Shown one piece after another: positions 18,589 through 50,146 of a stretch of 64,000 nucleotides of DNA. The translations under genes were made by a program, and so were the position numbers. The notes under the pieces are model-generated. The model saw only the letters and a list, made by a program, of their open reading frames with translations, did no database searches and was not told the DNA's origin. Each line of letters begins with the position of its first letter. Position 1 is the stretch's first letter. The stretch covers positions 124,001 through 188,000 of the forward strand of contig BLSF01000013.1 in the NCBI GenBank assembly GCA_012862575.1. The letters are read 5' to 3'. The DNA is from Parietichytrium sp. I65-24A. Lineage: Eukaryota; Sar; Bigyra; Thraustochytrida; Thraustochytriidae.

Positions 18589-19419
18589 TTATTGTGCACG
18601 GCCTCTCTTCAAGTACTCGGAAAACTGTCTTTCAGCCTCCTCATAATTTCGCTTCAAGACCACCTCTCCCTTGGACAGGTTCTGCACCTCGCTGTTCAGG
18701 TCGTCCATCTCCTTCTTCAAGTCCTCCATGACTTGGGAGGAGCTACGTAGCAGAAAAGCCTTGCCCATCCTGCGGTACGTCACCAAGCTCTCGGAGGTTC
18801 CTAGCTCCTGCTCAAGCGTGCGATGTACGATCTGCTTCTCCTGCAAAGCGCGGGTCCTGGATTGCTTCTTCCCACGCATATCCTGCAGCTTGTAAAGCGT
18901 CGCGAACCGCTGCTGTCCAAGCTTTTGCGCCAATTCCGGGTCCAGCGCGCGGCTGTTGGCCCTGACGGCCTCTTCCACTGCGGCTCTCGGTGACTGCTGC
19001 GACTTTGTCTTTGCAGCATTCTCCGCCTTCAGCTCCTTCTCCAACTTCTTAAAGTCCGAAAGCCCGGTCTGCTTCGCCTTCTTCCCGCTGCTGCTCTTAA
19101 ACAGCGCCATCCCGTCGCGCACCGCCTTCAGCGCCGCGTCCTTGTTCCCCAGCGCGCGCTCCGCATTCGCTAGTCGCAGGTACGCCTTCGCGTACTCCTT
19201 GTCCAGCGCCAGGCACTTCAAAGCGTCCGCGCGGGCGTCCTCGTACTGCTTCAGCGCAAGGTGAGCGGCCGCGCGGTTCGCGTACAGGACCGCGTGAAGA
19301 TCATCGTGAGAGAGACCTTCCGAGTACAGCTCCACCGCGCGAGAGAACTCTCCGCGCTGGAACGCTGCGTTCCCGTCCTCCTTCTTCTTGTCCGCCTTCG
19401 CCTTACCGTCCGACGACAT
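18589..19419 (-). CDS. TPR domain fused to prefoldin beta-like domain
   Basis: 276 residues. Residues about 8-112 are three tetratricopeptide repeats of the chaperone-cofactor type (KKEDGNAAFQRGEFSRAVEL, then VLYANRAAAHLALKQYEDA and AYLRLANAERALGNKDAALK). The N-terminal repeat has the Lys and Asn positions typical of carboxylate-clamp TPRs that bind the EEVD tail of Hsp70/Hsp90. After a Lys/Ala-rich linker, residues about 165-272 form a helix, hairpin, helix region with TYRRMGKAFLLRSSSQVME. This matches the beta-hairpin core of prefoldin subunit 1-like proteins (Y..VG+.FLL). A co-chaperone linking Hsp70/90 to prefoldin-type client handling is a reasonable inference. High GC and strongly biased codons suggest good expression. 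The fusion lies in a single unbroken frame. Confidence 0.8.
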   Translation of the reverse strand: MSSDGKAKADKKKEDGNAAFQRGEFSRAVELYSEGLSHDDLHAVLYANRAAAHLALKQYEDARADALKCLALDKEYAKAYLRLANAERALGNKDAALKAVRDGMALFKSSSGKKAKQTGLSDFKKLEKELKAENAAKTKSQQSPRAAVEEAVRANSRALDPELAQKLGQQRFATLYKLQDMRGKKQSRTRALQEKQIVHRTLEQELGTSESLVTYRRMGKAFLLRSSSQVMEDLKKEMDDLNSEVQNLSKGEVVLKRNYEEAERQFSEYLKRGRAQ

Positions 19420-19802: not shown

Positions 19803-21635
19803 TCACCTAACTATATAATTGGACTCGTCTTCAAAGCCGCGAGCGACACTTTCCAGGTGCCTCAAAAGGTCGACGGTGACAAGTGTATCACTAGAACAGT
19901 ATCGAACCAACCTGCTCTTCGCGATCTCTTTGTCTCTGCTCGACGTGTCAGGGTCAATCACTTGGAACCACAAGGATTGTGCATCAGCGCCATTCGACAG
20001 TACCGACGCATCTCCATAGTCAACCGAGGTTGGTATGGCATTCGCAATTCGCTTGAGTCCAAAAGCTCCTCGAAGCTTGGGGGAATAGAAAGTGTTTCTT
20101 GCCAGTTGAAGAGTGTCGCTAAGTCTATCGATGAGAGCATCGATCGGCCCTTCTAAATGCGCGCAATCCGGCTTCGACGCTAAGCCTAGCAAAACGCCCC
20201 GCTCAGCAGCAATCGAGTGCACAAAGATGGGGCCAGAGTCCCCCAAGGCCTTTAGCAATGATTCAGCAAATTTGACTCGGCAGCCAGGGTCGTCAAAACT
20301 TATGAAAGACTCCGCATCTTCAACCTCCAAGGCCTGATCGAAGGAGTCCCATCTGTGTACTGACCACTGAAATGGATGAGCTTCGCGCGGGCGGGTACCG
20401 GGGATGATGGGAACACCCTGCTGCACCATTTCAAAGTCCATGAAATACCTGGGCCAGCTGAACGAGTTCAGAATCTTGCCCAGATCTTTGCTGTACCAAT
20501 TCTTGTCGAGCAGATGACATTCCCAAATGCGGCGCCCCATAACGCTTCTTATCTCGCCTCTCGGAATATCTCTGATGTCCCAAATCCCACGGCGTCTCCA
20601 TTCTTCGATTCGCTTCTGCCCTACACGCGGAATCAACTCCAATGGTGCATCTGAAATCTCCTTCTTACACAATGCTTTATATACACAAGCATAAGGCTTG
20701 TTACACTGAGGGCCAGGCATAACGTTTGGCATGGGAGCGTGCTCTGCGGCGACGGGAAGCGTCTCGACCACCAATTCCTCCACCTCTGCTTTGCTTAAGA
20801 CTTGAGGCGTCAACTCTACATATTTGAACAGCCCATCATAGGACTCCCCATCAAACACGAAGTCGTTGTTGATATGCACGATAAAGCATCTGCTGACGGG
20901 GATCCCACTGAGCTGCAATACATACCTCTGAATAGAGACATCTTTTAAGTGTGTCGATTCCTTGTACTGTGTCGCAGACTTGACCTCGAACAAATCCCAT
21001 CCAGCACCGTTTCTCCGCAACACATCCGCACGAATGTACACCTGGCCAGCCATAAAGCCGCCTTCCAGGATGTAATCCACACTACTATTCTGCACTGCTC
21101 TTTCTGTCTCCGCAAGCACTTGCTCTCTTTCATAGAGATTTGCCAGGTTTGCCACGCTCCCATCGCGCTCATCCAAGCCTAACTCGCGCAAGGCGCTCAC
21201 CTCCGGAAATTCTTCCTTCAGACACATGTGCCGGACATGCAAGGCCACCCTGTTTCCCAGGTCCTTCAAGAAAGCCAACGTATCTGGCACACTTCTCCCT
21301 TCCTCATGAGTCTGAAACCACGCCAGCTTCTTGCACCTCTGCCCGCTCATGATTATCGTTTTGGTCACATGCTGCCTCAAGCCCGACCCCTTCCCGCTCC
21401 GCCTGCGGTCATGCACCGCTCGCTCGTCTTTGCCGCCACTCTCGCGTTTAATTATGGTGTCCTCAACCTCGTCCTTACATTCCGCGCTTCTTACTCCTGC
21501 CACTGCGTGCAACTGCGCACGTGCACTCTGCCACCCTTGCCAACTATGCCAACTATGACAACTTTGCCAACTTGGTCGCGTCCACGACTGCCTCGTTCGG
21601 GCACAGCTTTGCGCTCCCCTGCGCATATCGCTCAA
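19803..21635 (-). CDS. DUF2779 family protein: Cas4-like nuclease plus DEDD-like exonuclease domain
   Basis: 610 residues. From about residue 90 the protein matches the bacterial DUF2779 family. Four cysteines (Cys101, 311, 317, 323; the last three spaced C-x5-C-x5-C) fit the Fe-S cluster of Cas4/AddB-type nucleases. Between them is a PD-(D/E)xK core: RADVL with Asp204, then LFEVKSA with Glu217 and Lys219, then QRYVLQLSG. A hairpin-like stretch (LIPRVGQKRIEEW, 334-346) precedes a DEDD/RNase H-like domain: FMDFE (Asp400, Glu402), FVHSIAAERG (471-480), SPKLRGAFGLKRI and YCSSDTLVTVDLL (Asp583). The first 89 residues are Trp/Ser/Arg-rich and unlike the family, perhaps a targeting extension or a mis-set start. 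A DNA-processing nuclease role is inferred. The gene most likely entered from bacteria. Confidence 0.85.
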   Translation of the reverse strand: MSDMRRGAQSCARTRQSWTRPSWQSCHSWHSWQGWQSARAQLHAVAGVRSAECKDEVEDTIIKRESGGKDERAVHDRRRSGKGSGLRQHVTKTIIMSGQRCKKLAWFQTHEEGRSVPDTLAFLKDLGNRVALHVRHMCLKEEFPEVSALRELGLDERDGSVANLANLYEREQVLAETERAVQNSSVDYILEGGFMAGQVYIRADVLRRNGAGWDLFEVKSATQYKESTHLKDVSIQRYVLQLSGIPVSRCFIVHINNDFVFDGESYDGLFKYVELTPQVLSKAEVEELVVETLPVAAEHAPMPNVMPGPQCNKPYACVYKALCKKEISDAPLELIPRVGQKRIEEWRRRGIWDIRDIPRGEIRSVMGRRIWECHLLDKNWYSKDLGKILNSFSWPRYFMDFEMVQQGVPIIPGTRPREAHPFQWSVHRWDSFDQALEVEDAESFISFDDPGCRVKFAESLLKALGDSGPIFVHSIAAERGVLLGLASKPDCAHLEGPIDALIDRLSDTLQLARNTFYSPKLRGAFGLKRIANAIPTSVDYGDASVLSNGADAQSLWFQVIDPDTSSRDKEIAKSRLVRYCSSDTLVTVDLLRHLESVARGFEDESNYIVR

Positions 21636-23004
21636 CTTGCCTTCCGCCTTCCGGTTTACAATTTACACTATCCCTGTGCGCGAGGACACGTCCAGAGAGG
21701 GACGTCCCGCTGCGGTGACTACCGAGTACCTCCAAATGGCGGTAGTAGTAGCAGCCCCAGCTGGAGGGGTTGATAAAGGCTAGCTGGCTAGAGTAGTGCT
21801 TGGTGTGCTTGGTGTCCGCGAAGCGTCTGACTGCGGAACGTTTACCTGACACTTTTTGTCTTTCTGTCGAAGGTGTCTAGGAGTTAGTGTAACAAGATTG
21901 GTATGACCGAGTGGAAATGCGACTGAGAAACGTAATTAGTGAGCAGCTTCCTAATTGTATAGTGACGCTAAGAAGCAGTCTTAGCTCGGTGCTTAGCAGC
22001 CACTAACAGATCTTCAAGAGCAGAGAATTCACTGCAGAGAACTCCTATCTATCAGCGGTACTACTTTAGTAAGTAAGCTCTGTCCTCACCATCTCTCGCA
22101 ACTTAACACTAACACAGAGTACTGAGTACCAGTCCTGTTAACCGAACGATATACAAAACTTTAATTAATAGCACTCACCACTCGGCCTGCTAAGATTCCC
22201 TCCACCAGATCTACTATCACCTATTACCCATACTCATTAACGAGAGTGTCAGATAGAGAGAATAAAGGAGCCTTAAACCCGCGGTAAATAAACCGTCTAC
22301 CTTTTCATAGTCTAGCCTATTAAATCGGAAGCAGTCAGTCCCTGTCCTACTAGTTGCTAGCACATTGCTGATGAAGAATTGACTAATTGACTACAGGTGA
22401 CTACAGATGACTACTACAGTGTTGCCAATGACATTGACAGTGAATACAGTGAATGGAAAGAATGGAATCTCTCTTCCTCTCACAACACTCACATCATCTC
22501 ACTCACAACATCTCACAACACTGTCTTTTGTCTGTCAATACAAATCTGTCAATCAAACAAAATGTCTCACTCACTCAGCCAAAGTGAGCGTTCACTCACT
22601 GTCAGTGTCAGTGTCAGTGTAGCGCACAGCTCACCAAGAGTGAGAAGCAAAGAAGCAAAGAAGCAAAGAAGCAAGAGCCACTCACTGCCACTCCAACACG
22701 GAACTCGCGCCGTCACTCAGCAGTCAGCAGTCAGCAGTCAGCAGTGCCCGCTGCCATTGTACCTGTGCAGGTGCATCTCATCTTCTGGAGTTGAGTTTGA
22801 GAGGGTGGCCGTGGGCTGGTGGAGGGCTCAGCGGGGACTGGTCAGTCAGCGGTGAGAGATTGGGTGTCAAATTGTGTGGGACTTCTGCTTGAGACTGGAG
22901 GTTGTAAAGAGCGAGAAACTGCGCGGTGGGAAGGCGTTAGGTCGGGGAAGGGTAGGTTGGTAGTTTTGGTTGGTAGGTAGCGAGAGGTTTCTCGAGGAGC
23001 AAGG
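21636..23004. other. Gene-poor divergent spacer with short tandem repeats
   Basis: No supported gene. It holds an AGTACTGAGTAC cluster near 22117, a GTCAGT repeat (about 22597-22620), a GAAGCAAA repeat (about 22643-22675) and a CAGTCAG repeat (about 22717-22745). All lie 250-400 bases before the PHD gene, probably in or near its promoter. Confidence 0.5.
22597..22745 (+). repeat. Cluster of three short tandem repeats
   Basis: GTCAGT times four, then AGAAGCAA times four, then CAGCAGT times four, separated by unique sequence. Confidence 0.75.
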
Positions 23005-23812
23005 ATGTACGGACAGGCTTTGCGGCATGGGTCCAGGAAAAAGTGCTTATTGCCGCGCGAGCTGGACAGATACCCTCTCCACGTGGCAGTTGACTTTCGC
23101 AACTGCTCGGCGAAAACGCTGCGAGGTTACCTCGAACGGTACAAGTTGGAGTGCGCGCCGGAAGCCACGGTAGCGGACATGGCTCGAGTAGTCGCCAAGC
23201 ATTACAACCGCACGCTGGAAGTGCAGGAGGAGGAAGTTGTGTACAACTTTGTTCAGTATTTGAACGACTACAACGCCGATCCTGGAGCCAAACGTGCGAA
23301 AACCAAAAAGCATGGCACACGGTCTGCTCGTGATGAGCAGTCCGGTGAAGAGGAAGAAGCGCAAGCGCAGCCGCAGACGCAGGCACAGCCCCTGTACTGT
23401 ATTTGCAATCGAGTTTCGTTTGGGGAAATGATAGGTTGTGACAATGACGGCTGCAAAATCGAATGGTTTCATGTCGGTTGTGTAGGAATAGAGCCCAACT
23501 CCATGAAGGGAAGAGAGTGGTTCTGCCCGGATTGCCGCGCCGAGAAAGAGAAGGAAAAAGGCAAAGACGAAGGAACAATTCGCGTGACAAGAAGCGACTC
23601 GAAACCGAAGGGCGTTCGGGAGCGCGTAAAACCAAAACCGAAGCGTAAGTTGGAAAGAGACGTGGTTTGTCGCTCGAGCGCAGCAGAGATGATTGCGTGC
23701 TGACCATTTCATGTTCCGCTTTACAGGAAAACTGCCAGAAAGCCGAGAAAATTCTGGGCCAAGCAAGCGCAGAGCCACTGCAGATGTCGAAGAATCTGAA
23801 GTTAGCTCATAA
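23005..23812 (+). CDS. SAP30-like Sin3-binding domain fused to ING-type PHD finger
   Basis: 241 residues after removing one 82-base intron: exon 1 is 23005-23644 and exon 2 is 23727-23812. Residues about 26-90 ([20 protein letters not shown], then VVYNFVQYL) match the Sin3-interaction helix bundle of SAP30. Residues about 130-182 are a PHD finger of the ING type: [15 protein letters not shown], then [12 protein letters not shown] and WFCPDCR. The Cys4-His-Cys3 ligands are complete, including the aromatic Trp expected to contact methylated H3K4. The C-terminus is basic, a likely nuclear localisation signal. This fits a reader subunit of a Sin3/histone deacetylase complex, combining roles that in animals and yeast sit on separate subunits (SAP30 and ING/Pho23). 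Without splicing, the frame reads 19 unrelated codons and stops. The spliced tail ends ...VEESEVSS. Confidence 0.8.
23645..23726 (+). other. Spliceosomal intron, 82 nt
   Basis: GTAAGT donor (phase 1), branch-like GTGCTGAC near 23696, pyrimidine-rich stretch and TTACAG acceptor. Joining restores a Lys/Arg/Ser-rich C-terminal tail that ends in TAA at 23810-23812. Confidence 0.8.
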
Positions 23813-43048: not shown

Positions 43049-46000
43049 TTACTTTGGTGAAAGGAAGATGACTCCCTTGCGCAGGTTCTCCACGATGAAT
43101 TGCTGGTCCTCGGTACGGCCAGATTCCCGCAAGTCATTAATAAGATGCATCAGGCCGCGCAAGATTGCCTTTGGATCTTCTTTACCCATAGCAACAACGG
43201 CCTTGCTGATGTTATCCCCGCGCACGTTGCGGAGGCTTGTCTTGAGCGCATGTTTGCCCTCCTCTGACTCCAGCCACTCGTAAACATCCTGATCCTCAGT
43301 CCAGTTTGGAACCCTGGAGGTGGAAGAGTTGTAAACTCCTTCCAAAAAGTCCAAAGGCTCAAACTTGCCTTCGCAGGATTCCTTGATATTTTTGCACGCT
43401 TCGATCTCGGCCAAGCGCCTTCTCAAGCGATGGTAAAAGTATTTGCGGCTCTTCTCCCATGGAACGATTTCGCGGATGACTCCCTTTGCAAGCATACGCT
43501 CTGGTCTGTCATGAAGGTCAGCAAACTGCACAGCGATCTGGTGGAACACTGGGAGAATGAGGGCCTCGCGCTTCTTGATCTGAGCTTTGACATCAGCAGC
43601 TTTCTCGCCGGAACTGACACGAAGAGTCTCGTCGAGCTCAATGAGCTTCTCGTCAAGACGGTGTGCGGTAGCCAGCAAGTCCTTGTGGCGATATTTAATG
43701 CTAACAGCGCCCGCGGGCTCGAGGACGTTGTCGCGGCCGTCTGGGTCGCAGTACATCTCCATCATCTCGGCGTTGATGGTAGGGTCCACCACGACGTGGG
43801 ACCCACCACGCAGAGAACCAAATGGCGGAATGTAGACAAACACAGGCTGCTTGTACTCGACGAGGTTTTCCACAATCATACTGCCGTATTTCAGTACTTG
43901 GTCAAACATATCGCGCTGCCCACCAGAGAATCCTCTCCAACTGCTGAAGATGATCAATGGAAGACCTTCGCGGTTGAAGTCTGCGATTGCTTGAGCAGTC
44001 TTGTACGAGGAGTCAGGGAACCATACCTGACCTGCTTGCTGCCATACGCGCTCCTGGGAGTCAGGAGCTGCCGGATCTGCTGGCGCACGAGCCTCCACAG
44101 TGCGAATCTCGGAAGTGATGACTCCGATTGGGATCTGTCCGAGGCGAGCGCGGCCGGTGATGACGGTCTTTGCCCACCCTGCAAGGCACTCCGTAAAACT
44201 GCCCTTGTCAAAGAATCCAGCCACCCATCTCTGGTCGTCCCTCATGTACCCTTGAAGGAGTGTACGAGGATCATACTCGGTTGAAAGATCGCGGGGGTGA
44301 ACCTCTACAGGGCGGTCAGCATGGTCTCCAACCGATAGTGCGGTAAGTGGCAAGCGCGCTCCAACGCATTCCGGAACGTAGGACAACCAGGTGAGAGTCT
44401 TGGAGACTCCTTCAAGGTCGTGACGAACCGAGTGGTGTGACACACCGTTGGTGTACATGATCTTTGGGCCACCGAGCTGCAAGTTGGAAGTGTATACGTC
44501 GCGTCCCATGAGGGAATTGAGCGCCTGGTAGCCAGTCAGCAAGATTGGAGCGTCCTTACCCTTCTGAATGACACGTTGTCCTAGACGTGTGAGGTATGCA
44601 CCGATTCCGACATTGCGGCCGGACACATAGGTCAGCGTGAAGCATTCCTTGTACGCACGAGCGGTCTCACCAGCGATGGTACCACTGCCACGAAGGTTCT
44701 CCACTCCAAGGTCTGGTGCCTCTCCGATGATTGCACGGATCTTCCAGTGTTCTTGTCCTGGAACCTTTTCAGCTTGAAGCGACTTCCTGCCCTCAGGCCC
44801 AAGTTGGCTGTAGGTGTCGTCATCGACGAACAGGTACTCGTAGCCCTTGGAAGGATCCGCTTCGCTGATCCACTTGACCTTGAAGACGCTCTTCACCTCT
44901 TCAGCAAAACTCACGCGGGCACCACTATTGGCGGCGATGTAAATGCGAGGGACACCGATGCTACGAGCATAGGCAGAGGCACGCTCAAACAGAAGATCTT
45001 CGCGTGTGCCAAAGGAACCAGCCTTCACTGTGATATCATTGGCGATAAGCACGACCGGACGCCCGGCAGGATACTGAGGGGTACGCATGGTAGCCATCCA
45101 GGCTACCATGGACAATGCATTAGCGCCGGTGGGGCGAGAAGTCGTGCAGAGTCCGTGAGCGAATGGTTTGGCAGAAGGATCCATCTCGTCGTCCAATATG
45201 AGTTCCTGGAGCTCCAACATATTGCGCTTCATTGGCACCGCGAATGGAGGAGACTGTGGAGCGATACGCTCCAAGAAGGCCCTCCACTCAAACTCGAGCG
45301 ACTTGCGGAACAACTCTGGAAAATCGTAAGCAAACGTTGTACCTGCGGCTGCGGCGCGAACTCTGCGTTCGTCCAGAATGTCAGCAACGGGGTATGGAGT
45401 TGACAAAGGCTTGCCATGGAGCGCTCCGGTCCCGCTTGACTCTCCAGAGCCGGAAACCAAATCTGCTGCGCCGAGTCCCATCGCTGCGAGTGCGCTGCCG
45501 AGGCCACCATCGCCTTCAGAGATAGAATAGTAGATGGAGTCGCGCAAGTCAACAGGGTCTGTGGCCTCGACGTATGCATCGATATTGAGAGCGAAACCGG
45601 TTGGGTTCGAGGCAATCACGCGAATTGGGATACTCTCGGCGCCCTCCGCAAGCACAGCATTCACTCTGATTTCAAACTCGGTAACGTTCTGTGCTGCAAG
45701 ACGCTTTGCATAGCGTCTGTGCAAGGTGCGAATAATGCCTTCAACATACTCGGCAGAGATCTTGGCAGAGTCGCTAAGCACGTTCATGAAGATATGGTTC
45801 TTCCCGATCCTTGCCTGGTGGCCAGCTGCCGTGCTTTCTTCCTGAATCGACTCGAGGGCGCGAAGGGCTTGCACAAAGACACGCTCCGGGCCAGGGTATT
45901 CGTCAAATGCACCGACGTCAAGCTTGACTCGCTCAGTCTGGCGAACAAGAGCACGCACAAAGTGCCTGGTCATGTGTTTGCCGCCGTGCTTTGGGACGGC

Positions 46001-49000
46001 TTCATAGACGTGGACCGTCTGAGATCTGCTCATGCGCTTGCCGATCGGCACCAGCCTGATATTAAAGTTGGCTAGTCTCTGCAAGTCCAGCTGGAATGCC
46101 AGAGGAGTCTCGATGTTTCTGACAAGGCGATCTTCCTCAAACCCGCTGCTGCTTCTGAAAGTGAAGAAGTGCGCACCATGGCCGGCGACGATGGAGTGCT
46201 TCGAGCCGCTCGTTTTGTTTTCAGTCTCCTCTCCGCTCGTCTGAACGACGGCAAACGTGACGCGGCGAACCCCGTTGGCCTGGAACTCAGGCTTGTATTT
46301 GGATGCAAGCGCAGAGAGCTCGTCAGCCATGACGGTCTCGTCGGAGTTTGGCGATCCGAGGATTACATGGACAACCGCCAGAGGAACTGGCGACGCAGGA
46401 GACCCGTCCTTGGTCTTCTTGTTGTTCCGCTCGCCAAGCTGTGCAATTTTAGAGGAGAACGAGGCCTCGAGTTCCGCCTTCTCTGCAAAGAAGAGAAGTA
46501 CACCTGCGCGGTGCACGTAGGGAGGAATTTCGTTCGATTTGCCCTCGATGCTCTCCGAGCGTGCCTTTGAGTCAGAAATTTGACGGGCCATCGGTTTGCG
46601 TTTAAATTGCTGCATTCCGCGAGGTGAGTACTCGGAACCATCATAGGAGGAGTTGGACTGAAGAGGGTCCATGTTGTCGAGGTCCATGCCAACGCTGCTC
46701 TCATCAGCCTCGCTTTGGTTGTTGCCGGATTCTTCCATTGGTTGGTCTCCAAGAGCAAGGACGGAAGTGAGATCGTCAAAGGACGAGACGGTTGCCATGG
46801 ATGGAGATCCAGCGCCCATCTGCACAGAGTCTGTGGCGTCAGAATAGAAGGTGAACTCCGAGGTGAGAACCTTGCGATTGTTTTCACGCTCTTCCTCGTG
46901 GCTCTGGACGCCCACAATCGAGTAGGACGCATAGACGCGCTCGATGTACATTCGCATAGCTTCGGAGCGGATCTGCGTGTCGTAGATTGCTGGCTGAGAA
47001 ATAATGTCCATCAGATACGTGAGAATGGGAGAGGTGGATGTGACCAGCGACTGGCGAGCAGAGGAGTCTCCACCAAGATGAGCACGAAGCTTTGACACGA
47101 TAGAACTGAGCTCTTCTTCGTAAGAGTGCTCAATCTCGATCAAACTCTGGCGGGCTTCAAGGGCAACATCGGTGTTTCGCACCCCATGAAGACCAGCCAC
47201 GAGTTGGAATAGCTCGGAGCACCTCGTGCGAAGTTTCTTTTCGTTCGTGTGCTGGCGCACAACACGCTCCAAGGTGTAGAGGATCTTTTGCACCAGAGAG
47301 TCGCGGGGTTTGCGAGAGGAGTGTGCCAGAGACATGTCTCGCACCTTTGCAAGCTCTCCTTGATGTGCAGCGCGAAGCTCTTGAAGCACATCATCCTTCT
47401 CGGCGGCATCCGACATCTCAAGATCAGCAAAGCGGCTTTCAATAGCAGTGTAGTCCTCGATGAGAGAGCCAAGAATATTGACTTTCAAGAAGGCGAGGCC
47501 ATCCACGTAGCGCTGCGCAAGATTTTCCAGCGCAAGGACTGCTGGGTTAGACTTGCTGTGTTCGCTTGCAGCAGTCGCAACGCTGATGGCGAACGCTGCC
47601 GCATCGCTTCCGGAAGGCATAGGGCTCTTGGACATGTATGCCTTGCGGAGCGCCTTGCAGGCTTCATCAACGTGATCCACGAGCTGCCCTGGTAGGTTGT
47701 TCTTATTGCGAGAAATGTAGCCCTCGACCTCGAGCACCGGAAGGAGAGGGTTGGAGGTAGCGACCTCGACGTCCTGCAGAGCCTGGGAGATGACCTCCTC
47801 GGTAATTTTGTACCCGCTTATCACGTTTCCGAGCTTTGCGCGCGCGCGCTCCAGCGTCTGATGAGGCATGTTCTCCAGAGTTTGTGGCCATGGCTCTCCG
47901 AGATGAGGGAGTGACTCCTCGAAGAGATCAGCCTTGCGGACCTTAGAAGGATCGGCAAGCTCCATGGTGGCAATGACGTCGCCGGGTTCCATGACAGAGC
48001 CTTCCGGCTTGACAAGGGAGATAATTCCGTCTTCCTGAGCGGAGAGCTGCATGTTCATCTTCATGACTTCGACTTCCGCGAACGGATCACCCTTCTTGAT
48101 GCTGGAGCCATCTTCGACCAAATACCGCAGGAGCTTGCCACCCATAAGTGCGCGCATCTGAGTAGGATCATACTCGTCAGGAAAGAGGCACGTCTGGCCG
48201 TCAATAATATACCGTTGCGCCCCGACATCTTCCTTGTTGTATGCTACGTGGGATTTGCCCCCCATCAACACGAGGAATCCGCCGTCGGCCAAGGAACGGA
48301 GTTCGATATCCACAGACGAGTCGTTACACGAGACGCGGTAGGTGATCGCACCGGTTTTGGCCACAGAGATCTTGTACTTGACATTCTCGTAGATGAGATC
48401 AAAGCTGTACGATTGATCGAGCAAAGCTGAAGGAGGAAGCTGGCCGCGCTCGAGCATTGCAAGGTAATCATCAAACATGGAAGCAATGTGCTTGTGGGCA
48501 GTGCACGCCGCGCCGACAAGAACGATGGTGAGCGGATCCGCCTTGGAGATTGCCACGTTGCGCTTGATGCGAGCATCCAACCAGGTGGTGTCAAAGTTGT
48601 TTGCCTTGTAATCCTCCGACTCGATGAGATCCTTCAGGTACTCAATAGTCGTACGAATCTCACCACGGATGGAAAGATCGTTGAGTGCCATAGCCAGGTT
48701 CCGGCGAGCCTCTTCGCGGTTCTCGCCCCATGCAAAAATGTGGCCGATCTGCGAGTCGGCAAACTCGTGCACACGACCGGAGCTATCTACACTGAAGTAA
48801 CCCCATACGTTGCGAGAGCTGCGAAAGTTGACCTCTGTAATCTGTCCGGAGGTGGGCTGAAATCCGTTGAAAGGGTTCTCAGCAGTAATGCGAGCCGCAA
48901 TAGTGTGCCCGTGGGTGAGTGCCTGGCAGGTCGGTTTCTCAGCATATTGTCCATCAAAATCGATCTTCTCCGCAGAGTAGAGATCATCGCAGCCGTAAAA

Positions 49001-50146
49001 TCTGCGCACATCTGGAATTCGGTGCAGGGGAATACCCATTGCCACCTGAAGCTGGCAGCACGGGAGATTCATGCCAGTAATCATCTCGGTCACAGGGTGT
49101 TCCACCTGGAGACGCGGGTTGAGCTCCAAAAAGTAAAAATTGTCGTTTTGATCGTACAGATACTCGACGGTACCGGCGTTGACGTATCCGACTTCTTTGG
49201 CGAGGCGGACGGCGGCTTTCTCCATTTCAATCCATGCAGCTGGTTTAGCGGCAATTGGAGGGCCCTCCTCAAGGATCTTTTGGTGCCTGCGCTGAACAGA
49301 GCAGTCACGTCCGTTGAGAGCAATCGCTTGGCCATACATGTCACAAAGCAGCTGCACTTCCAGATGGCGAGACGCGCTGGAGAGCCTCATGATGAAAATT
49401 GGGCTCCCAGGAATCTCACTCTGGACTTGACGAAAAGCAGCCTCGACTTTGGCAAAGTCGTCGACAAGACGAATACCTTTGCCACCACCGCCTTCACTTG
49501 CCTTGATCATGACTGGCAGCCCGAGTTTGTCAATGATATTTCGGGCCTGTTCAACAGTCTTGACGTTCGCCTGATCGTAGATTTTGGCAGGAATGTCTTG
49601 CATTTCCTTGTAGTTTACCGAGAGGCCCTCACCATTCCATGCGATTGTAGGCACGTTGGCGCTCTGTGCAATAATGGTAGAACCGATTTTATCTCCGAGG
49701 GCGTACATTGGTCCGCCTGGTGGGCCGATGAACACGATGCCAAGCTCGTGCAGAGTGTTGGGCAGGCGCGGGTTTTCGCTTGCGTGACCCCACCCGGCCC
49801 ACACTGCGTCCACCTTGTACTGCTGTGCGATCTCCACAATGAGGTTCACGTTGGCATAGTTGTTGATGTTGGATCCTCCAGGAACGTGGCACACCTGGTC
49901 GGAGTACCGGATGTACTCTGCATTGGCCATGAGATCCTCAGGGGTGGCCATGGCCACGAACTCAATCTCCTTGTCTTTATTGAAAGTGGAGTAACTCCAG
50001 CTCCTCACAGAGCGAATGAACTTGACGGCGGCGATTCCATTGTTTGAGATCAGAATCCGCCTGATCTGTCGCGTGCCCTCCACCTCCTTGAGGTAAGTTT
50101 CCAGGTCCGGGAACGTCCTGAGGCGCTTATCCGACTCGGGCTTCAT
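43049..50146 (-). CDS. ACC1: Acetyl-CoA carboxylase, single-chain eukaryotic type
   Basis: 2365 residues, the usual length of homomeric eukaryotic ACC. It carboxylates acetyl-CoA to malonyl-CoA, the committed step of fatty-acid and polyunsaturated lipid synthesis. Residues about 25-525 are the biotin carboxylase: GGSNINNYANV, KASEGGGGKGIR, RDCSVQRRHQKILEE and ELNPRLQVEHPVTE. The biotin carrier has EVMKMNMQL with biotinyl Lys696. A long central region (about 780-1600) includes a Ser/Asp-rich insertion. The carboxyltransferase occupies about 1610-2330: GARVSFAEEVKSVF, RGSGTIAGETARAYKE, TSNLQLGGPKIMYTNGVSH, FSSWRGFSGGQRDMFDQVLK and PFGSLRGGSHVVVDPTIN. No plastid or mitochondrial presequence is apparent, so it is cytosolic. 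One exon covers the whole gene. Codon use is strongly biased, consistent with high expression. Confidence 0.97.
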   Translation of the reverse strand: MKPESDKRLRTFPDLETYLKEVEGTRQIRRILISNNGIAAVKFIRSVRSWSYSTFNKDKEIEFVAMATPEDLMANAEYIRYSDQVCHVPGGSNINNYANVNLIVEIAQQYKVDAVWAGWGHASENPRLPNTLHELGIVFIGPPGGPMYALGDKIGSTIIAQSANVPTIAWNGEGLSVNYKEMQDIPAKIYDQANVKTVEQARNIIDKLGLPVMIKASEGGGGKGIRLVDDFAKVEAAFRQVQSEIPGSPIFIMRLSSASRHLEVQLLCDMYGQAIALNGRDCSVQRRHQKILEEGPPIAAKPAAWIEMEKAAVRLAKEVGYVNAGTVEYLYDQNDNFYFLELNPRLQVEHPVTEMITGMNLPCCQLQVAMGIPLHRIPDVRRFYGCDDLYSAEKIDFDGQYAEKPTCQALTHGHTIAARITAENPFNGFQPTSGQITEVNFRSSRNVWGYFSVDSSGRVHEFADSQIGHIFAWGENREEARRNLAMALNDLSIRGEIRTTIEYLKDLIESEDYKANNFDTTWLDARIKRNVAISKADPLTIVLVGAACTAHKHIASMFDDYLAMLERGQLPPSALLDQSYSFDLIYENVKYKISVAKTGAITYRVSCNDSSVDIELRSLADGGFLVLMGGKSHVAYNKEDVGAQRYIIDGQTCLFPDEYDPTQMRALMGGKLLRYLVEDGSSIKKGDPFAEVEVMKMNMQLSAQEDGIISLVKPEGSVMEPGDVIATMELADPSKVRKADLFEESLPHLGEPWPQTLENMPHQTLERARAKLGNVISGYKITEEVISQALQDVEVATSNPLLPVLEVEGYISRNKNNLPGQLVDHVDEACKALRKAYMSKSPMPSGSDAAAFAISVATAASEHSKSNPAVLALENLAQRYVDGLAFLKVNILGSLIEDYTAIESRFADLEMSDAAEKDDVLQELRAAHQGELAKVRDMSLAHSSRKPRDSLVQKILYTLERVVRQHTNEKKLRTRCSELFQLVAGLHGVRNTDVALEARQSLIEIEHSYEEELSSIVSKLRAHLGGDSSARQSLVTSTSPILTYLMDIISQPAIYDTQIRSEAMRMYIERVYASYSIVGVQSHEEERENNRKVLTSEFTFYSDATDSVQMGAGSPSMATVSSFDDLTSVLALGDQPMEESGNNQSEADESSVGMDLDNMDPLQSNSSYDGSEYSPRGMQQFKRKPMARQISDSKARSESIEGKSNEIPPYVHRAGVLLFFAEKAELEASFSSKIAQLGERNNKKTKDGSPASPVPLAVVHVILGSPNSDETVMADELSALASKYKPEFQANGVRRVTFAVVQTSGEETENKTSGSKHSIVAGHGAHFFTFRSSSGFEEDRLVRNIETPLAFQLDLQRLANFNIRLVPIGKRMSRSQTVHVYEAVPKHGGKHMTRHFVRALVRQTERVKLDVGAFDEYPGPERVFVQALRALESIQEESTAAGHQARIGKNHIFMNVLSDSAKISAEYVEGIIRTLHRRYAKRLAAQNVTEFEIRVNAVLAEGAESIPIRVIASNPTGFALNIDAYVEATDPVDLRDSIYYSISEGDGGLGSALAAMGLGAADLVSGSGESSGTGALHGKPLSTPYPVADILDERRVRAAAAGTTFAYDFPELFRKSLEFEWRAFLERIAPQSPPFAVPMKRNMLELQELILDDEMDPSAKPFAHGLCTTSRPTGANALSMVAWMATMRTPQYPAGRPVVLIANDITVKAGSFGTREDLLFERASAYARSIGVPRIYIAANSGARVSFAEEVKSVFKVKWISEADPSKGYEYLFVDDDTYSQLGPEGRKSLQAEKVPGQEHWKIRAIIGEAPDLGVENLRGSGTIAGETARAYKECFTLTYVSGRNVGIGAYLTRLGQRVIQKGKDAPILLTGYQALNSLMGRDVYTSNLQLGGPKIMYTNGVSHHSVRHDLEGVSKTLTWLSYVPECVGARLPLTALSVGDHADRPVEVHPRDLSTEYDPRTLLQGYMRDDQRWVAGFFDKGSFTECLAGWAKTVITGRARLGQIPIGVITSEIRTVEARAPADPAAPDSQERVWQQAGQVWFPDSSYKTAQAIADFNREGLPLIIFSSWRGFSGGQRDMFDQVLKYGSMIVENLVEYKQPVFVYIPPFGSLRGGSHVVVDPTINAEMMEMYCDPDGRDNVLEPAGAVSIKYRHKDLLATAHRLDEKLIELDETLRVSSGEKAADVKAQIKKREALILPVFHQIAVQFADLHDRPERMLAKGVIREIVPWEKSRKYFYHRLRRRLAEIEACKNIKESCEGKFEPLDFLEGVYNSSTSRVPNWTEDQDVYEWLESEEGKHALKTSLRNVRGDNISKAVVAMGKEDPKAILRGLMHLINDLRESGRTEDQQFIVENLRKGVIFLSPK

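Follow-up and report, generated by a model that had tools for sequence, protein, structure and literature searches.

The window analysed here, a 64,000-nucleotide stretch of DNA from the heterotrophic protist Parietichytrium sp. I65-24A, carries a gene that is a new member of DUF2779, a family that is already known but uncharacterised. We consider it likely that this is a nuclear gene that entered the protist lineage long ago, from a bacterium akin to the one that supplied the DUF2779 copies of SAR11, and that it has been kept as a two-site DNA nuclease. The features on which the analysis relies are given below in window positions.

19803..21626, minus strand: DUF2779 gene, encoding 607 aa if read from the first ATG, with 610 codons when counted from the TTG at 21635
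20652..21380, minus strand: Cas4-like PD-(D/E)XK domain with four Cys (C101, C311, C317, C323), D204 and E217-x-K219
19815..20459, minus strand: DEDD-type exonuclease domain (D400, E402, E478, Y579-x3-D583) with a family B polymerase exonuclease fold, holding most of the PF11074 match
21369..21626, minus strand: N-terminal extension of 86 residues with no counterpart in most aligned family members (alignment, codon bias, charge and moment)
21525..21573, minus strand: 9-bp tandem repeat, 5.4 copies, 77% matches, encoding a Ser-Trp-x stretch
18589..19419, minus strand: flanking TPR gene (Pfam)
23005..23703, plus strand: flanking gene with a SAP30 Sin3-binding region and a PHD finger, a eukaryotic chromatin gene (Pfam)
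43049..50146, minus strand: single-chain acetyl-CoA carboxylase with the ACC central region, 2365 aa, marking a eukaryotic contig

The protein and its predicted nuclease sites

The minus-strand frame at 19803-21635 runs uninterrupted for 610 codons from a TTG, an unusual start in eukaryotes, and its first ATG is codon 4 (21626); the residue numbers of the active-site set are counted from the TTG. Membership in DUF2779, as proposed in an earlier note on this DNA, is firm on profile evidence: the Pfam profile search places PF11074 on residues 397-524 at 65.6 bits, where the cut-off is 23.3. This is the single PF11074 match in a six-frame search of the whole 42.5 Mb genome. In the other Pfam comparisons Cas_Cas4 (PF01930) stayed below threshold (12.7 bits, cut-off 22.7) and Exo5 (PF09810) was absent from the matches of the protein at E <= 1; the protist genome likewise has no Exo5 match at E <= 0.001. 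NCBIfam returned 0 families at E <= 10, so the TM0106-type RecB-like nuclease profile is unmatched, and PADLOC-DB, which covers known anti-phage proteins, returned 0 families at E <= 1. PHROGs gave only a weak match (E 0.36), and nothing credible emerged from the PDB sequence searches, whose best E values were 1.4 and 0.46.

The residues expected of two nuclease sites are in place. Residues D204, C311, C317, C323, D400, E402, E478, D507, Y579 and D583 are invariant in an 80-row alignment and C101, E217 and K219 are conserved in at least 90% of its rows; PF11074 matches 80 of the 80 rows of alignment A2 at E <= 0.01. The numbering of the ten residues singled out in the earlier note (C101, C311, C317, C323, D204, E217, K219, D400, E402 and D583) was checked, and all are present and conserved. 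The four Cys lie in the Cas4-like domain and are, by sequence, putative 4Fe-4S ligands. That note had also described a DEDD-like set of D400, E402 and D583, which holds; at the Exo II position the protein has a Glu (E478) where the classical DEDD residue is Asp. DxE and Y-x3-D are the named motifs of family B polymerase exonuclease domains; the DxE, Exo II Glu and Y-x3-D of DUF2779 are all kept in the protist protein (D400, E402, E478, Y579, D583), with the Cas4/DUF83-like N-terminal domain in the same chain.

The AlphaFold (AF2) model (mean pLDDT 91.5, pTM 0.88) shows that the protein has two predicted nuclease folds. In the structure search residues 1-243 of the model match Cas4 and residues 308-522 match polymerase exonuclease domains, and the DEDD domain is closest to family B DNA polymerases among the matches listed. 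Both the Cas4-like and the DEDD fold are formed in the predicted structure, as had been anticipated. The top exonuclease-fold match is DNA polymerase alpha, whose domain is not known to be an active exonuclease in eukaryotes, so the fold alone is no proof of activity.

Family homology begins at about V90-T91. The preceding residues had been described as an 89-residue extension foreign to the family; they are mostly without a family counterpart, but the extension measures 86 residues from the ATG, and one other row among the 13 aligned (L010) is likewise extended, so N-terminal extra residues are not unique to the protist protein. There, upstream of the internal Met 96, the protein has a Lys that 90% or more of the rows share, and the start therefore probably lies above this Met. 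Splice-like sites occur at the 5' end of the gene without deciding the start, which could be the first ATG, an upstream spliced exon or a non-ATG codon. Residues 1-48 carry a net charge of +7 with zero Asp or Glu, a pattern that fits a mitochondrial presequence, and the helical moment of residues 1-50 is 0.557 against a shuffle mean of 0.412, with 7.75% of 2000 shuffles as high. Codon log-odds are -0.26 for residues 1-41 and +0.23 for residues 42-82, both weak measures over 41 codons each. The first 41 codons show no coding bias, and a targeting-peptide role of the extension is putative. The region above the gene (21498-22745) is rich in short tandem repeats, some overlapping; 11 of the 13 repeat rows for 21000-23000, obtained with the score limit lowered to 30, lie above the 9-bp repeat.

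Relatives and their gene neighbourhoods

When contigs of bacteria and archaea were scanned with a profile, at least 565 relatives turned up among 584 stretches, and the best 80 of these were kept. Four of the best 80 (L065, L067, L084, L086) lie on contigs titled DPANN archaea (Woesearchaeota, Nanoarchaeota). With tblastn, 29 of 72,556 plasmid records contained relatives (best E 4e-44), and in 20 of these 29 the match spanned 80% or more of the query; no relative appeared among 50,697 phage records or in single-sequence scans of viral and bacterial contigs. Of 397 genomes sampled from the SAR11 order, 6 have a DUF2779 match; one of these matches is weak and partial, the other five are strong. 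The counts are 12 of 385 for the class containing SAR11 and 22 of 398 for the phylum, each sample including the centre genome G001. No relative closer than the SAR11 set was found in the sampled order, class and phylum; beyond the phylum, coverage was through the plasmids and the best 80 of the at least 565 scan relatives.

The SAR11 set consists of L028, L014 and the copies in genomes G304, G193 and G200. Compared by phmmer with the core of the protist protein, these five reach 262-318 bits and any other row at most 233; they are 34-39% identical to the protist protein in whole-genome searches. The L028 contig carries EF-Tu-like and NusG-like frames (read by eye), and L028 is therefore taken to belong to SAR11 itself rather than to stem from protist contamination.

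Two of the SAR11-order loci lie beside recognised defence genes. In genome G193 (L151:1-7616) DUF2779 opens an operon and overlaps a homologue of MzaB, which is followed by homologues of MzaC, MzaD and MzaE; in the available text on the published MzaABCDE system a sigma factor takes the first position (PMC9523054). L014 has a type II restriction-modification pair within 3 kb, made up of a C5 methyltransferase and an endonuclease of SinI type. No defence protein was recognised among the 5 neighbouring frames scanned at L028 or the 5 at L152. The sole PADLOC match among the 4 frames scanned at L150 is MzaA, a sigma-factor model, and we take the matching frame to be the housekeeping RpoD.

A bacterial gene order of tandem AAA, DUF2779 and WYL on one strand recurs in 12 of 92 loci (L005, L006, L025, L027, L029, L034, L040, L047, L051, L052, L070, L076), and the tandem AAA of L005 is IetA/TRIP13-like in PADLOC. 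This order may represent an undescribed defence module. Bacterial DUF2779 proteins would most likely serve in anti-phage or restriction islands, a reading by guilt by association that does not correct for neighbours present by chance. A transposon mutant of Mbov_0804, a bacterial DUF2779 gene of Mycoplasma bovis, grows alone and grows poorly with host cells (PMC7373297).

Origin and possible role of the protist gene

The protist protein is sister to the same five SAR11 proteins in all three trees. Support for this grouping is 99 (SH-aLRT) in a quick tree of 122 rows and 100/100 in each of two careful trees of 57 and 65 rows. Two tested placements of the protist gene inside SAR11 are rejected. 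The AU test rejected a grouping with L028 alone (p 0.0023), with L099 alone (p 0.013) and with the L115 group (p 2e-6), the tested groups having been chosen after the tree was viewed. The branch of the protist protein is 1.44 and the stem uniting it with SAR11 is 1.12, and the composition of the SAR11 proteins was flagged as odd; long-branch attraction is therefore possible. The trees and scores support a bacterial identity for the nearest relatives of the protist protein among the sequences compared.

It is unlikely that the gene is instead an old eukaryotic one that kinetoplastids and a small number of further lineages have kept, and that SAR11 took its copies from protists or shares an old common source with them. 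A 2025 proteomics study places LINF_110008700 of Leishmania infantum, a putative DUF2779 protein, in the cytoplasm, so far as its available text goes (PMC12464055), and DUF2779 in a eukaryote is thus already on record before the protist gene. This annotation, together with the four archaeal loci among the best 80, makes the earlier description of the family as essentially bacterial too strong. The rarity of DUF2779 in SAR11 (6/397) and the single clade formed by the five strong SAR11 copies beside the eukaryotic gene also agree with an old eukaryotic gene. Against it, DUF2779 occurs, deeply branched, in numerous phyla of bacteria and in some archaea, so that a bacterial root is simpler, and two SAR11 copies sit with bacterial defence genes.

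Delivery by a giant virus or another large DNA virus of protists is highly unlikely. Among viral proteins the top structural match, found by Foldseek with E 6.9e-11, TMq 0.62 and rmsd 7.5 over 645 columns, is to a protein of 846 aa from Faunusvirus sp. (Mimiviridae; BFVD A0A3G4ZWN9); given its length, the match must cover both domains, yet its identity is just 13%. From its predicted structure, this giant virus seems to encode a Cas4-like and exonuclease protein. Of the 15 viral-contig relatives found, 14 were long enough for the tree and none joins the protist protein; the other viral scans and the phage searches found no relative, and the flanking genes are cellular.

A decayed or non-expressed insertion, or contamination, is scarcely credible: the single genome match, the long branch and the partly repetitive 5' end would allow it, but the 607-codon frame is intact with its active-site residues kept, and the neighbours on the same contig are eukaryotic with similar GC. 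Contamination was rejected on these neighbours and on GC and GC3 values within their range. The DUF2779 core has a GC of 0.51 and a GC3 of 0.58, and the nine neighbours span 0.50-0.59 and 0.53-0.79, respectively; with its eukaryotic neighbours and matching GC and GC3, the gene therefore belongs to the eukaryotic contig. The five SAR11 loci have a GC of 0.27-0.29 against 0.51 in the protist core. The gene falls beside the SAR11 clade, not within it, and is flanked by eukaryotic genes, the opposite of a gene nested in one bacterial genus among bacterial flanks, and it stands as the complete, uninterrupted copy between nuclear genes that had been claimed. The in-frame log-odds of the core is 0.09 against -0.36 and -0.30 in the other two frames of the strand. 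Its synonymous-codon score (-0.025) is just under the lowest of the nine neighbours (-0.009), and its codon use is weakly biased rather than typical. The DUF2779 gene looks long settled in the eukaryotic contig. Elsewhere in the genome (G000:C66:8562-22499) a 5583-aa open frame with several ketosynthase matches is probably a large type I polyketide synthase. The genome shows no light-harvesting match and no PfaA match above the cut-off; one frame of 577 aa contains, by eye, both DHFR and thymidylate synthase, and in the two TIM frames (450 and 256 aa) no GAPDH is visible by eye.

Under an old acquisition from a bacterium, the Cas4-like N-terminal domain would hold a 4Fe-4S cluster and cut DNA ends, the C-terminal DEDD domain would trim 3' ends with metal ions, and both domains would jointly process or destroy DNA ends. 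No WYL match occurs in the protist genome at E <= 0.001 in the profile search, so a frequent bacterial neighbour of DUF2779 is missing; homologues of MzaB-E are not beside the gene, and none of the recurrent bacterial neighbours was recognised there. The protist protein would most likely dispense with these partners and work in DNA repair, in the turnover of organelle DNA or in clearing foreign DNA. Its gene possibly derives from a defence-associated one. A more specific and rather unlikely extension is that the protist domesticated the nuclease of a SAR11-type anti-phage module, which would now destroy foreign or damaged DNA, possibly in the mitochondrion, in parallel with the origin proposed for the eukaryotic MORC ATPases. 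In the available text of their paper, Iyer, Abhiman and Aravind proposed that eukaryotic MORC came from bacterial restriction-modification systems by a single lateral transfer (PMC2292703); if the extension is true, eukaryotes would hold, besides MORC, a second component of this kind, a nuclease whose source is a related system.

In keeping with the earlier note, no function is assigned to the family in the available text of PMC3597751, PMC8442362 and PMC6690266. A survey of the RNase H-like superfamily lists DUF2779 as family F.17 and, in the text available, predicts nuclease activity (PMC3985635). Within the accessible literature on gene transfer in thraustochytrids, on eukaryotic Cas4 and on defence in protists, nothing was found on DUF2779. 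DUF2779 combines two nuclease folds in one chain without an assigned function. The SAR11 MzaB-E operon and the recurring AAA-DUF2779-WYL order connect it with anti-phage defence in a way that can be tested, and from the protist copy it is seen that a DUF2779 gene is able to persist outside such an operon.

Comparison with known systems

Exo5/DEM1 (PF09810) is a eukaryotic Cas4-like nuclease that is mitochondrial in yeast. The protist protein is likewise a predicted Cas4-like nuclease in a eukaryote, and it differs in having no PF09810 match at E <= 1. The Cas4 nucleases (7mi4, 8d3q) share the PD-(D/E)XK fold and the four Cys, whereas the protist protein has an extra exonuclease domain and matches PF01930 below the cut-off. 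With the exonuclease domain of family B DNA polymerases the protist protein shares the fold, DxE and Y-x3-D, but it has a Glu for the Exo II Asp and no polymerase domain. LINF_110008700 of Leishmania infantum has the family name in common in a eukaryote, a likeness by annotation. The SAR11 DUF2779 proteins form the sister group; those read to their full start, which leaves aside L150, lack the extension, and their genomes are AT-rich. Compared with the DUF2779 family as a whole, the protist protein has no recognised recurrent bacterial neighbours, sits in a eukaryotic genome and adds the 86-residue N-terminal extension, and it is alike in domain order, in active-site residues and in a profile match over the cut-off (PF11074; PMC3985635, so far as its available text describes the family).
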